Assembly (NCBI RefSeq): GCF_947498175.1
Contig: NZ_CANMJB010000005.1
Span: forward strand, 167,495-231,494
From: an uncultured Algimonas sp.
GTDB taxonomy: Bacteria > Pseudomonadota > Alphaproteobacteria > Caulobacterales > Maricaulaceae
Length of the DNA: 64,000 nt
Reading direction: 5' to 3'
Shown one piece after another: positions 58,481 to 64,000 of the stretch. Under the pieces are notes generated by a model. That model did not search any database. It was not told where the DNA came from and saw only the letters and a list, made by a program, of their open reading frames with translations. Position numbers and translations under genes: made by a program. The number at the start of each line of letters is the position of its first letter. The stretch's first letter is position 1.

Positions 58481-59097
58481 TTCAGACGCTCCTGCAGGTC
58501 AGCGACGGCATCCTTGGACAGCACCAGCGTGTGGCGGCGCAGGATGTCGTAGACGTTGGCGCCCTGGCTGGGCAGCACGTCGATGTTCGGAATGTTGCGG
58601 GCGGCCCGGCCGAACGCATCGTCGATGGCGTTGCCGCCGACGATCAGCGCGTTGGTCACGCCGATCTTTTGAAGCTGTTTGGCCAGCGCGGAGGTTTTCG
58701 CATCCTTCAGCGCCAACTCATCGACGATGATCAGCTCGCCTGCGCCCTGCTTGGCCGACAGAGCATGGCGCAGCGCCATCTTGCGAACCTTCTTGGGCAG
58801 TTCGTGGCTGTGATCGCGCGACCGCGGACCGTGCGCCTTGGCACCGCCGCGGAACTGCGAGACCGAGCCGTTGCCGTGACGGGCCGTACCGCCGCCCTTC
58901 TGGCGACCGATCCGCTTCGTCGTCTTGGCAACGTCGCCGCGTTCCTGCACCTGGTGCGTGCCGGAGCGGCGCTTGGCCAGCTGGTAACGGACCATGCGGT
59001 GGAGAATGTCCTTGCGGGGCTCCTGGCCGAAGATGCTCTCGTCGAGATCGACAGAGCCGCCGGTCTTGCCATCGAGTTTCGTCACATCGATTTTCAT
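58477..59097 (-). CDS. rplD: 50S ribosomal protein L4
   Basis: [73 protein letters not shown]. Confidence 0.97.
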
Positions 59098-59942
59098 TGT
59101 TCGTCACCACCCTTGTTTTCAGCGGCTTTGTCTTCGTCGCCGTCATCGGCGGTGGTTGCGGCCATGGCGGCGTCGCGTTCGGCCGCGATGCGCGCGGCTT
59201 CGGCCTCGGCTTCGGCGGCGGCGGCCGCTTCGGCATCCTCGGCGGCTTTCTGCGCGGCCTTGCGGTCGGCATTCGTCGCGGCCGGGAAAATCAGGTCTTC
59301 GGGCTGCGCCGCTTTCACCGCGTCGCGGATCTCGACCCATCCGCCCTTGGACCCGGGAACGGCACCCTTGATGAGGATCAGGCCTTCGTCGATCTCGACG
59401 CGGGCGACCTCGACATTCTGTTGCGTGCGGCGGACGGCGCCCATGTGGCCAGCCATCTTCTTGCCCTTGAAGACCTTGCCCGGATCCTGGCACTGGCCCG
59501 TCGAGCCGTGGGAGCGGTGCGAGATCGACACGCCGTGCGTCGCGCGCAGGCCGCCGAAATTGTGGCGCTTCATCGCCCCGGCAAAGCCCTTGCCGATGGA
59601 GGTTCCGGAGACATCGACCTTCTGGCCCGGAAGGAAGTGACCGGCGATGAGCTCCTCGCCCACCTCGACCAGATTCTCTTCCGCGACGCGGAATTCGACC
59701 AGTTTCTGTTTCGGGGTCACGCCCGCCTTGGCGAAGCGTTCGCGCTCGGCCTTGGACACGCGCTTGACCTTGGCCTCGCCCGCGCCGAGCTGCACGGCGG
59801 CGTAGCCGTCGCGCTCGGTCGTCTTCTGCGCCACGACGGCACAGCCTTCGAGCGACAGGACGGTGACGGGGACATGGTTGCCGGCGTCGTCATAGACCCG
59901 GGTCATCCCGAGTTTGCGCGCCAATAGACCTGAACGTTGCAT
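59094..59942 (-). CDS. rplC: 50S ribosomal protein L3 with acidic Ala/Glu-rich C-terminal tail
   Basis: [47 protein letters not shown]...; tail [49 protein letters not shown]. Confidence 0.96.
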
Positions 59943-60002
59943 CAGCAGGTTATCCTTCACGAAATTCGCCCGACCTCACCACGAGGCACGAGCGTCATAT
60001 GC

Positions 60003-60075
60003 ACAGCATTCGGGAGATGGGTCTGCGATCTAACAAAACCGGGCCAGCGCGCCGCGAAAGGCGCCTGGCCGGATA
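60003..60075 (-). other. Structured element copy A: terminator/attenuator-like hairpin plus conserved flank upstream of rplC
   Basis: 60039-60072 folds ccgggccagcgc...gcgcctggccgg (two single-nt bulges); on the minus strand it is followed by TTTTG. Flank matches copy B (60866-60943). Confidence 0.6.
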
Positions 60076-60316
60076 GTCGGTACAAGATCGTCAGCCGCGT
60101 CTGCCTAAGCACTGCCAGCTATGAACGAGGCGCCCTCTACGGAAGCGACTCGCAAAGGTCAACGGGCGAATGCAGGAAAGTGGGTTGCCGGACCTCATTC
60201 GAAAAATCATGCAAGGCTTTGCAAGACCATCGTCGAAAGCACATCGCGAACCGTGCGCCCATCCCGCAAGCACAGAGCCTGCAAACCGCATATTTTCAGG
60301 CATTGTCAATCCAACC

Positions 60317-60440
60317 CGTGACCGACCTGGCGACATCCGCTCCGACCGGACGCCGCGACGTGTCCATCGTCACGATCAACCGTCCGGACCGGCGCAAGGC
60401 CATGGACTGGACGACGGCATGGAAGGAGGCACTGGATTTC
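60317..60440 (+). pseudogene. Possible enoyl-CoA hydratase/isomerase N-terminal relic
   Basis: PVTDLATSAPTGRRDVSIVTINRPDRRKAMDWTTAWKEALDF resembles an ECH N-terminus; downstream sequence does not continue as ECH. Confidence 0.35.
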
Positions 60441-60865
60441 GGCAGCGTCAACCGCGCCGCACCCGAAGTCACCGCGCTGCTAACCGCCCGGAACCCTCCC
60501 CTGTCGGAACGTCGCCTTCCCTTCGACCCGTTCTGCGCAACGACCGCCATTCCCTGCCGGATCAGTGAGGGATCAGCAAAACGGAGACCCTGGCGTACGA
60601 AGCCCGGCTCGGTCTTGGAGACGATCGGCATGGGAGAAGCGGCCGCGGCGGCGATGTGGGTCAAGAGCGGCGACGGGCGGATCGGGCGTTTCGAGCAAAT
60701 GAATAAGAGCGCTCCTAAGGACGCCGTCATGTTGTAACGGGAAAAGCGCTGCGCGCGTACAACTCAATGTTCACTTCAGCGCCGATGAGGTCTGAAGTTT
60801 GCATCGACAACTTGCCCCCCTCGAAAAATCGACCGGACCTGCCATGCCGAACGGACGCAAGAGTC

Positions 60866-60943
60866 ACAGCATTTCGAAAGATGGGCCTGCGACCTGGCAA
60901 AACCGGGTCGGCACTGCGGAAGGCGCTAGGCCGACCCGGAGAT
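60866..60943 (-). other. Structured element copy B: perfect 10-bp stem, terminator-like, downstream of the TonB-dependent receptor
   Basis: 60903-60912 ccgggtcggc pairs with 60930-60939 gccgacccgg; minus-strand TTTTG follows. Confidence 0.65.
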
Positions 60944-60994
60944 GGTCTTACAGAACCTTCAAAGCGGCGCGGTGTGAAAGCCGCTGTATCATCG

Positions 60995-63097
60995 TCAGAA
61001 TTGGTCCGACACCGTCAGAGTTATGAACTCTCCACGTCTTCGATCCAGAAATTCGGACCCGGTTAAGGCGCCGCTCCGGTCCGGGGAGAACAGGGTACGG
61101 TCGCGCGGCAGCCCAAGGCCTCCGATGTTGCGGACATTGATCCGCATCTTTACCCCGGCAAACCGTGTCGTCTCCACGAAGGCTGACCATTGGTTCCCAG
61201 TAACGTCCCGCAACACCTCGTTGGCGAAAAAGATGTCGGTCGTTACTTCCGACTCGTAGGTCACGCCCCATGAGATTTTCCGAGAAGGGATGTCCTGACG
61301 AAAGTCGATCTCGATATCGGGATTGGAAATCCGCGTGATTTTCCGGGTGCGACCCGTGATCGGATCAACGAAACTCGCGTCGAGGAACGACGCGGTCACT
61401 TCGAGCAGGCCGCCCGGAACGAGGCCCGAAAGCGGCAGCGCGCCGTTGGCGTCCAGTCCCCACACGCGTGCGTTCCCCGCATTGGCCAGGCCCGGAACGC
61501 CGTTCGGCAGAACCACTTGTTCCAGCACATCCTCGCGCCATTCGTGGAAAGGTTCGACATTTAGCGCAATCCCGCCCTCCGTCCGGAAGTCTGCCGATAT
61601 GCTCGCGCGCCAGGTCTGGTCCGGGCCAAGGCCTGGGTTTCCGGCAAGCAGGCGATCATCCTCTGCGTTGGCAGACGCCGCAAAGTCGTTGAAGTCGAGC
61701 TGTCCGACGCTGCGCCTGAGCGCCGCGCGGAACTGCAACGATGCGGACGGCTGGTAGATGAGGGCAAGCGAAGGTTTGAGAAAGACGAAATCGTTGCTGT
61801 TTCCGGCATCTCCATCGACGGTGATTTGCGACAGTTCCACCGCCAAGCCACCTTCGGCAGTCCATTGAGGCGCAGCTTGCCAGACGATATTGGCAAAGGC
61901 TTCGCCGCGATACTCCCGGACCTGCACATCGGACGCGGGAAGATCAATGGCGCGGATACCGCCATCGGCATCTTCCACTTCCAGAGCGATACGAGAGTCG
62001 AGCTGGTTATAGGCGACTTCGACACCGAATTCCGGTCGGAACTCGCCATTGACCCGCCCGAAAGTGGCGCGCGACAGGATTTCCAAAGGCCGACGCCGGG
62101 TTTCGAACCGGCTGATAGATTCGGTCCGTCCAACAGGACGCTCGTTCAAAGTCACTGCGCTTTGTTCGGAGTCGCGGGCAGACCCCAAGGCCAGCAGTTT
62201 GAGAACGGAATTGCCGCCGACACTCCGCGTCCAGTCGGCACTAAGCTCGCCGTCCCAGAAGGCGCTGTCGAAGTCGATATCGGTCAAGCGATCCGGCCCG
62301 TTCTCGTCCGCCGTGCGGCCAGCGAACCCGGTCCGTTGCGTGTTCCTCCCGAATTCGCTGTAGCCGAACCGACTATTTAGGGTCAGAGTCCCCCCGCCAA
62401 ACAGACGCTCGGCTTCGCTGGCGACAAATGCTTCGCCAAGACTGGACGGGGCAGATTCGACTTCGAACAGATCCAGCGCGCCCTCGGCGCCGAATGTCTG
62501 CCGCTCGAAGCGGGTAAAGGGGAACTTTTCCCAGAAGGCGTTGAGTTTCGTGGTGGTCCGCCAGCGGCCTAGCGGTGCAGTGATCGACAGCTCGCCGCGC
62601 GGATAGACAAGGCCGTCCGAATTACGTTCCAGTTCCGCCGACCAGGTTCCTGCGACGACATCCGACTTGCGAACGACATTCGCGACAAGCCCTTGGCCTG
62701 CTGTTTCCCCGGCCCGTTGCGCACCGCGCGAAATAACGATGCGCTCGACGGCGTTCGCGGGAATGCGGGAGAGGAAATCTTCGATTCCCCCCGCCTTGAT
62801 GGTCGGACGCTCGCCGTCGATCAGCACGTTACCCGCCCCGCCAGCAAAGCCGCGCAGGCTTTCGCCGCCTTCAATGCTAAAGCCAGGTACGCGTTGAAGC
62901 AATTCGAGGGCTGTTTGCGGAAAGAACCTGTCGAAAAAAGCGCGTGGATATGAATCGGCATCTGATGTGGATGCGTCAACCGGTTGGCCGACAACCGAAG
63001 ATTTGCGAGCGTCTAGTTCCCTTTGTGCGAAGGCTGTTGGGGCGTGGAACGCAATCGCGAAACAGAAGGCGAGCATGCTGCGGACGTGATGGGTCAT
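60995..63097 (-). CDS. TonB-dependent receptor
   Basis: Signal peptide; plug-like FPQTALELLQRVPGFSIEGGESLRGFAGGAGNVLIDGERPTIKAGGIEDFLSRIPANAVERIVISRG; beta-barrel pattern; C-terminal FITLTVSDQF ending in aromatic residue. Confidence 0.93.
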   Translation of the reverse strand: MTHHVRSMLAFCFAIAFHAPTAFAQRELDARKSSVVGQPVDASTSDADSYPRAFFDRFFPQTALELLQRVPGFSIEGGESLRGFAGGAGNVLIDGERPTIKAGGIEDFLSRIPANAVERIVISRGAQRAGETAGQGLVANVVRKSDVVAGTWSAELERNSDGLVYPRGELSITAPLGRWRTTTKLNAFWEKFPFTRFERQTFGAEGALDLFEVESAPSSLGEAFVASEAERLFGGGTLTLNSRFGYSEFGRNTQRTGFAGRTADENGPDRLTDIDFDSAFWDGELSADWTRSVGGNSVLKLLALGSARDSEQSAVTLNERPVGRTESISRFETRRRPLEILSRATFGRVNGEFRPEFGVEVAYNQLDSRIALEVEDADGGIRAIDLPASDVQVREYRGEAFANIVWQAAPQWTAEGGLAVELSQITVDGDAGNSNDFVFLKPSLALIYQPSASLQFRAALRRSVGQLDFNDFAASANAEDDRLLAGNPGLGPDQTWRASISADFRTEGGIALNVEPFHEWREDVLEQVVLPNGVPGLANAGNARVWGLDANGALPLSGLVPGGLLEVTASFLDASFVDPITGRTRKITRISNPDIEIDFRQDIPSRKISWGVTYESEVTTDIFFANEVLRDVTGNQWSAFVETTRFAGVKMRINVRNIGGLGLPRDRTLFSPDRSGALTGSEFLDRRRGEFITLTVSDQF

Positions 63098-63133
63098 CGG
63101 AGCGGCCTCGTGGCGACAGAATAGTGTAATATA

Positions 63134-63151
63134 CTAACACTTTCCTAACAC
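63134..63151 (-). promoter_or_regulatory. Direct-repeat operator candidate upstream of the TonB-dependent receptor
   Basis: Minus strand GTGTTAG-GAAA-GTGTTAG (11-bp period) next to AT-rich TATATTACACTATT. Confidence 0.4.
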
Positions 63152-63241
63152 CAACGACTCGTCAAACCGATCTGTGACATTTTCTTTGGAGTATGCCGGA
63201 CTGTCGGCTCCGTATGCGTTTCTGCTGATTGCTTCGAACCC

Positions 63242-63268
63242 AAAAAAAAGCGCCCCGAAGGACGCTTC
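63242..63268 (-). terminator. Rho-independent terminator downstream of rpsJ
   Basis: + strand aaaaaaaagcgccccgaaggacgctt; minus strand AGCGTCC-TTCG-GGGCGCT followed by T8. Confidence 0.88.
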
Positions 63269-63362
63269 TATCAACATGTCGCGTATGTAATCGCGCCTGC
63301 TATCTATCGGTTAGGACATTTCGTTTCGAAAAGTCTTCCAGAGTTTCGTCTATCCAGAAACT

Positions 63363-63677
63363 TTACGCGCCCAGCTTGATCTCGACATCGACACCGGCTG
63401 CCAGGTCGAGTTTCATCAGCGCATCGACCGTCTGGGGCGTCGGGTCGACGATGTCGAGCATGCGTTTGTGCGTGCGGATCTCGAACTGCTCGCGGCTCTT
63501 CTTGTTGACGTGGGGCGAGCGGTTGACGGTGAATTTCTCGATGCGGGTCGGCAGCGGGATGGGACCGCGGACGCTGGCCCCGGTACGCTTGGCGGTGGCG
63601 ACGATTTCGCCAGTGCTTTTGTCGAGAATGCGGTGATCGAACGACTTGAGTCGGATGCGGATGTTCTGTGCGGCCAT
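63363..63677 (-). CDS. rpsJ: 30S ribosomal protein S10
   Basis: [74 protein letters not shown]. Confidence 0.97.
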
Positions 63678-63763
63678 TGTTCTAGTCTCTTGCGGTCAAA
63701 AAAGGTCCAGGGTGGGAAGACGAACTCCCACCCCGGCGTTGTCGTTTGGAAGCGGGCTGACCC

Positions 63764-64000
<237 letters not shown>

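Follow-up and report, generated by a model that had tools for sequence, protein, structure and literature searches.

Upstream of rplC, on the minus strand of the window (the whole 64,000-nt stretch of DNA analyzed here), lies a conserved element of ~170 bases which, judging from its sequence, is likely a conditional attenuator or autoregulatory leader of the rplC operon that arose when the S10 operon was split; attenuation, feedback, and a ligand, possibly L4, are the parts of this reading that we infer. A preliminary description of the window had reported two copies of a structured element, A (60003-60075) and B (60866-60943), and had suggested a new leader or attenuator. Both copies are present at these positions and are related. 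Copy A is part of the conserved element, which reaches past the interval first described, to about 59967-60162. The suggestion stands for A, which forms part of a structured minus-strand RNA of the rplC operon that resembles a leader or attenuator and is kept in relatives with compensatory changes; it does not extend to A and B as equivalent copies.

The element was found in front of rplC in five species, all of one genus (Hellea/Robiginitomaculum group): G000, from which the window comes, and G006, G007, G012, and G015. The search of related genomes with a covariance model, which had been proposed as a check, recovered the leader before rplC in these five genomes, all with a split S10 operon, with scores of 115-141 bits and one match per genome; the next match in the family scored 25 bits and lies inside a coding frame. 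Neither the box pattern nor the covariance model detected the element in any other of the 137 genomes of the family. A model match in G081, with a reading frame running through it, was dismissed as chance, and one in G471 (28.7 bits), with several closing pairs broken, was treated likewise. DNA matches of 17-35 bases in ~130 relatives cover mostly the GC-rich hairpin core and are at chance level. Between species, the leader core is 65-94% identical, compared to 48-77% for third codon positions of rplD, and the core is the more alike of the two in every species pair. Upstream of the promoter, similarity between species is at random level.

Because the surrounding genes lie on the minus strand, it is this strand that gives the relevant RNA. 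The promoter pattern, TTGAC[CG], 17 nt, TA[GA]NNN, and 7 nt to GUUCAUAGC, shows no indel across the five species, and the predicted +1 is at 60126, 7 nt downstream of the −10 element TAGAGG; a simple sigma-70 scan did not pick it out. After the promoter follow the 5′ box, a variable part, the GC hairpin with UUUUG, a UGU-N-CAUAUG box, a small hairpin, and the Shine-Dalgarno sequence. On the minus strand, the order is hairpin, UUUUG, and conserved flank, as given earlier, followed in the case of A by rplC. The 5′ box contains the 5′ strands of both P1 and an alternative 5′ hairpin, and the rplC start, ATGCAACG, is common to the split clade in the alignment. A leader peptide beginning at the conserved CAUAUG was considered and rejected: the ends of the frames differ, the G015 frame enters rplC, and no Shine-Dalgarno sequence precedes it.

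Features of the rplC leader region and of the separated rpsJ locus (positions in the window)
Feature	Position	Strand	Evidence or remark
rplC (L3), first gene of the separated operon	59094..59942	(-)	Pfam PF00297, alignment
Shine-Dalgarno AAGGAT of rplC	59952..59957	(-)	sequence
P4 hairpin, between rod and Shine-Dalgarno	59967..59996	(-)	covarying pairs in helices 5 and 6
Predicted leader RNA core (copy A extended): P1 closing stems, P2, P3	59994..60126	(-)	alignments, pair counts, covariance model 140.8 bits
P3 terminator-like hairpin CCGGCCAG..CUGGCCCGG, then UUUUG at 60034-60038 (hairpin of copy A in the preliminary description)	60034..60072	(-)	3 compensatory pairs, 96.9% of cells paired
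Invariant 5′ box GUUCAUAGCUGGCAGUG	60110..60126	(-)	17/17 identical in five species
−10 element TAGAGG	60134..60139	(-)	TA-initial hexamer, identical distance in five of five species
−35 element TTGACC of the rplC promoter	60157..60162	(-)	TTGACC/TTGACG, 17-nt spacer, five of five species
Copy B, 5′-truncated duplicate of P3 and 3′ part of leader	60866..60936	(-)	77% to A; in this genome only
TonB-dependent receptor, between rpsJ and rplC	60995..63097	(-)	Pfam PF00593 and PF07715
Classical terminator directly after rpsJ, AGAAGCGTCCTTCGGGGCGCTTTTTTTT	63242..63269	(-)	equivalents after rpsJ in G006, G007, G015
rpsJ (S10), apart from rplC	63363..63677	(-)	ORF; same separation in G006, G007, G015

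The consensus fold and most folds of single sequences form one rod closed by the 5′ box, with stems P1a UCAUA/UAUGA, P1b GCAGUG/CACUGU, P2 CGAUCU/AGAUCG, and P3 GGCCAGGCGC/GCGCGCUGGCC. Pairing is found in 93.9% of cells in an alignment not fitted to this fold, compared to 28-48% when slid, and 11 pairs carry a change on both sides, which none of 500 shuffles reached; since the structure was derived from the same five sequences, these pair counts are biased in its favor. The compensatory changes are located in P2, at the top of P3, and in P4. At one end of P2, CGAUCU/AGAUCG has been replaced by CGACA/UGUCG, and P2 pairs poorly in G007 and G012 in the alignment used for the pair counts. The top of P3 covaries, while its base never varies among the five species. 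The pairs of P1 are nearly invariant, and P1 therefore receives little covariation support, only consistency. Folding z-scores of whole leaders are modest (−1.0 to −2.6). Overall, the compensatory changes support the predicted leader fold. A lack of copies or covariation in relatives had been named as evidence against the proposal; we find both the element and compensatory changes when A is compared to the four other species.

Because the promoter lies upstream of the hairpin and full termination would silence an essential operon, termination at the hairpin, if any, would be partial or conditional. In four of the five split genomes (G006, G007, G012, and G015), the upstream neighbor is divergent. 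The hairpin therefore cannot terminate the transcript of an upstream gene in those four, which suggests that it acts on the rplC transcript itself. An explanation without attenuation, which we consider unlikely, is that the leader is a structured 5′ end: a rod within 2-3 nt of +1 would shield the mRNA from 5′-end-dependent decay, P4 would tune translation, and UUUUG would be incidental. Single-sequence folds do close the rod at the predicted 5′ end, P4 covaries, and the terminator scan did not call P3, whose U-tract is weak and consists only of UUUUG, the hairpin itself being conserved. However, the invariant UUUUG after the hairpin, the invariant base of P3 beneath a covarying top, and the conservation of the 5′ box sequence beyond the needs of pairing would all be left unexplained.

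Copies A and B align locally with 77.5% identity over 71 bp (E 7e-8); the alignment score is 61, compared to a maximum of 28 among 500 shuffles. In the whole 2.85-Mb genome, a shared 29-mer (up to 3 mismatches) occurs in A and B only, and a control pattern was found 0 times. The A and B hairpins both fold well, with z-scores of −2.7 and −3.3 on the plus strand and −1.7 and −2.2 on the minus strand. The preliminary description had also claimed that the stems of A and B covary. This held up only in part: the outer portion of the perfect stem of B pairs with sequence that lacks a counterpart in A. Since the homology starts inside the sense 5′ arm of the hairpin, at CGGCC, the covariation is partly new outer sequence rather than base-for-base compensation.

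Copy B begins ~50 nt past the stop of the TonB-receptor gene, and its hairpin (60904-60940, UUUUG at 60899-60903) has a perfect 10-bp stem. It aligns solely with the hairpin and 3′ flank of A, the promoter, 5′ box, and closing stems being missing; it matches the covariance model weakly (11.9 bits, unfiltered) and is closer to the A of its own genome than to the leader of any other species. B is thus not the equivalent of A that it had been taken for. It is confined to this genome, is placed like a terminator after the TonB-receptor gene, and is probably a partial duplicate of the 3′ half of the leader that now serves as an ordinary terminator of that gene. The view that A and B are both ordinary intrinsic terminators against read-through from upstream genes would suit the location of B 50 nt after the receptor stop and its 10-bp stem with UUUUG, and B alone may fit it; for A, it is very improbable, since in four of five species no transcript arrives from the divergent upstream gene and a conserved promoter stands upstream of the hairpin. 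Even less credible is a mobile or repetitive element that has A and B as its ends or copies and the genes of the rpsJ-rplC gap as its cargo: although B is a duplicate and the gap genes differ per species, the genome holds only two copies, 0.86 kb apart, no copy was seen beside rpsJ in the other split genomes, each split genome has one model match, and no transposase-family match was found among the window proteins searched. A search of phages, plasmids, and viral contigs likewise gave no match, only chance 15-mers.

Bacteria usually have rplC immediately after rpsJ. Among ~80 named alphaproteobacterial loci, this adjacency is plain in 70, and most of the others are without a recognized motif or contig. 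Nine of the 14 genomes of the genus with rplC are unsplit, with rplC a few nucleotides after rpsJ and no element; the other five are the split genomes. The order in the window is rpsJ, terminator, TonB receptor, copy B, ~0.7 kb, copy A, and rplC-rplD-rplW-rplB onward. No protein was recognizable with Pfam in the ~0.7 kb between B and A, and a crotonase-like run of letters seen there by eye was without Pfam support. In four split genomes (G000, G006, G007, and G015), rpsJ was located 2.4 to 10 kb from rplC, with a strong terminator within ~120 nt after it; rpsJ was not found in G012, the assembly of which is 70% complete. In a tree built from L4, L23, and L2, the five split genomes are monophyletic (100/99), by which the operon split has a single origin.

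Several other features of the locus were observed. The contents of the rpsJ-rplC gap vary by split species and include a TonB receptor, a permease, an AMP nucleosidase, and a periplasmic-binding-like protein (L123, L124, L125, and L126; window 59960-63360); in G015, the gap is about 10 kb. Since the gap genes differ per species, insertions seem to have entered the site freely after the split. In split genomes, the tuf-rpsJ spacer (63678-63770 and relatives) contains a GC-rich hairpin and, directly behind it, a T-run, e.g., CCGGGGTGGGAG..CTTCCCACCCTGG ACCTTTTTT, and unsplit genomes have a hairpin at a similar place; a possible role is that of an attenuator between tuf and rpsJ. The window rplC (59094-59942) looks mosaic: over residues 1-30 it agrees with the split clade (29/30 with G015), while the rest groups with Hellea and unsplit genomes (100/100), contrary to the L4, L23, and L2 tree, a pattern suggestive of gene conversion or transfer within rplC. 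Close relatives differ strongly in the C-terminal tail of L3 (L005 402-1418, L006 658-1416, window 59094-59300), and the G007 tail has an extra segment resembling a helix-hairpin-helix region, IQLVDGIGPKGAEALKAAGVGTLTGL.

Our preferred reading of A as a conditional attenuator implies the following course of events. In the ancestor of the clade, the S10 operon would have been cut after rpsJ; rpsJ would have gained its own terminator, and the remainder its own promoter directly before the leader. Copy A would be the core of the structured 5′ leader of the rplC-rplD-rplW-rplB... transcript. The RNA would start at or near GUUCAUAGC, and the rod would place its invariant 5′ end beside the CAUAUGA element and bear the strong GC hairpin ending in UUUUG. 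This hairpin would most likely act as a conditional or partial attenuator, with read-through according to need, and the feedback signal would be a ribosomal protein of the operon, with L4 as the first candidate. When the leader was compared to the 23S rRNA of the same genome, no local similarity above that of shuffles was detected, and this sequence comparison, purely structural mimics aside, therefore lends no support to a mimic of the L4 or L3 site.

A switch between two pairings can be envisaged. The GCUGGC of the 5′ box recurs in the 3′ arm of P3 (GCUGGCC), which gives the 5′ arm GGCCAG two potential pairing partners. When folds are predicted without the 3′ arm, pairing between the 5′ arm and the box forms in G007, G012, and G006 but not in G000 and G015. 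The base of P3 is without covariation, as expected for a segment with two partners, a weak indication in a set of only five sequences. Tentatively, the element may be a ribosomal-protein leader born at the operon split, in which a protein of the operon decides between antitermination and termination, and as such would found a new attenuator family.

Rfam scans (gathering thresholds and E<=10) of the element matched no ribosomal leader and no other family. L4 is the protein that reads the S10 leader of E. coli, which works on both transcription and translation, and the E. coli-type L4 site is not widely conserved in gammaproteobacteria, not even in Pseudomonas (PMC10931766). The element resembles this leader in the gene cluster, in a strong hairpin and U-run (here only UUUUG) after the promoter, and in having rplD (L4) in the transcript; unlike it, the element comes after rpsJ, directly before rplC, has another fold, and shows no sequence or Rfam match. 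Its location between rpsJ and rplC and the lack of an Rfam match place it outside the gammaproteobacterial S10 leader (L4) family. Candidate leaders have been described for L2 in Alphaproteobacteria (rplB, rpsS, rplV, and rpsC) and for L4 in Archaeoglobi (rplC, rplD, rplW, and rplB), and an S10 leader of Firmicutes is cited in the same work (PMC7247131). The L2 leader shares class, gene cluster, and the status of a candidate ribosomal-protein leader with our element, but it precedes rplB, not rplC, and was not detected here by Rfam. The Archaeoglobi leader also stands before an operon with rplC listed first, but is archaeal, and the Firmicutes leader is likewise a lineage-specific leader of the S10 operon, but precedes rpsJ and belongs to another phylum; the window element has no Rfam match to either.

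As a conserved structured RNA in the 5′ UTR of a ribosomal-protein operon, which is the general mark of ribosomal-protein leaders, the element most likely works like one, outside any described family. In the literature searched, no described regulator of rplC in Alphaproteobacteria was found. Lineage-specific leaders of ribosomal-protein operons are known; to our knowledge, how they arise is not. Since the leader, a new promoter, and a broken operon occur together in a single clade whose sister species in the genus are unsplit, this case opens the origin of such a regulator to direct study. If the leader was indeed born at the split as a new attenuator family, the origin of this family would be datable on the species tree, with the unsplit sister species as a control.
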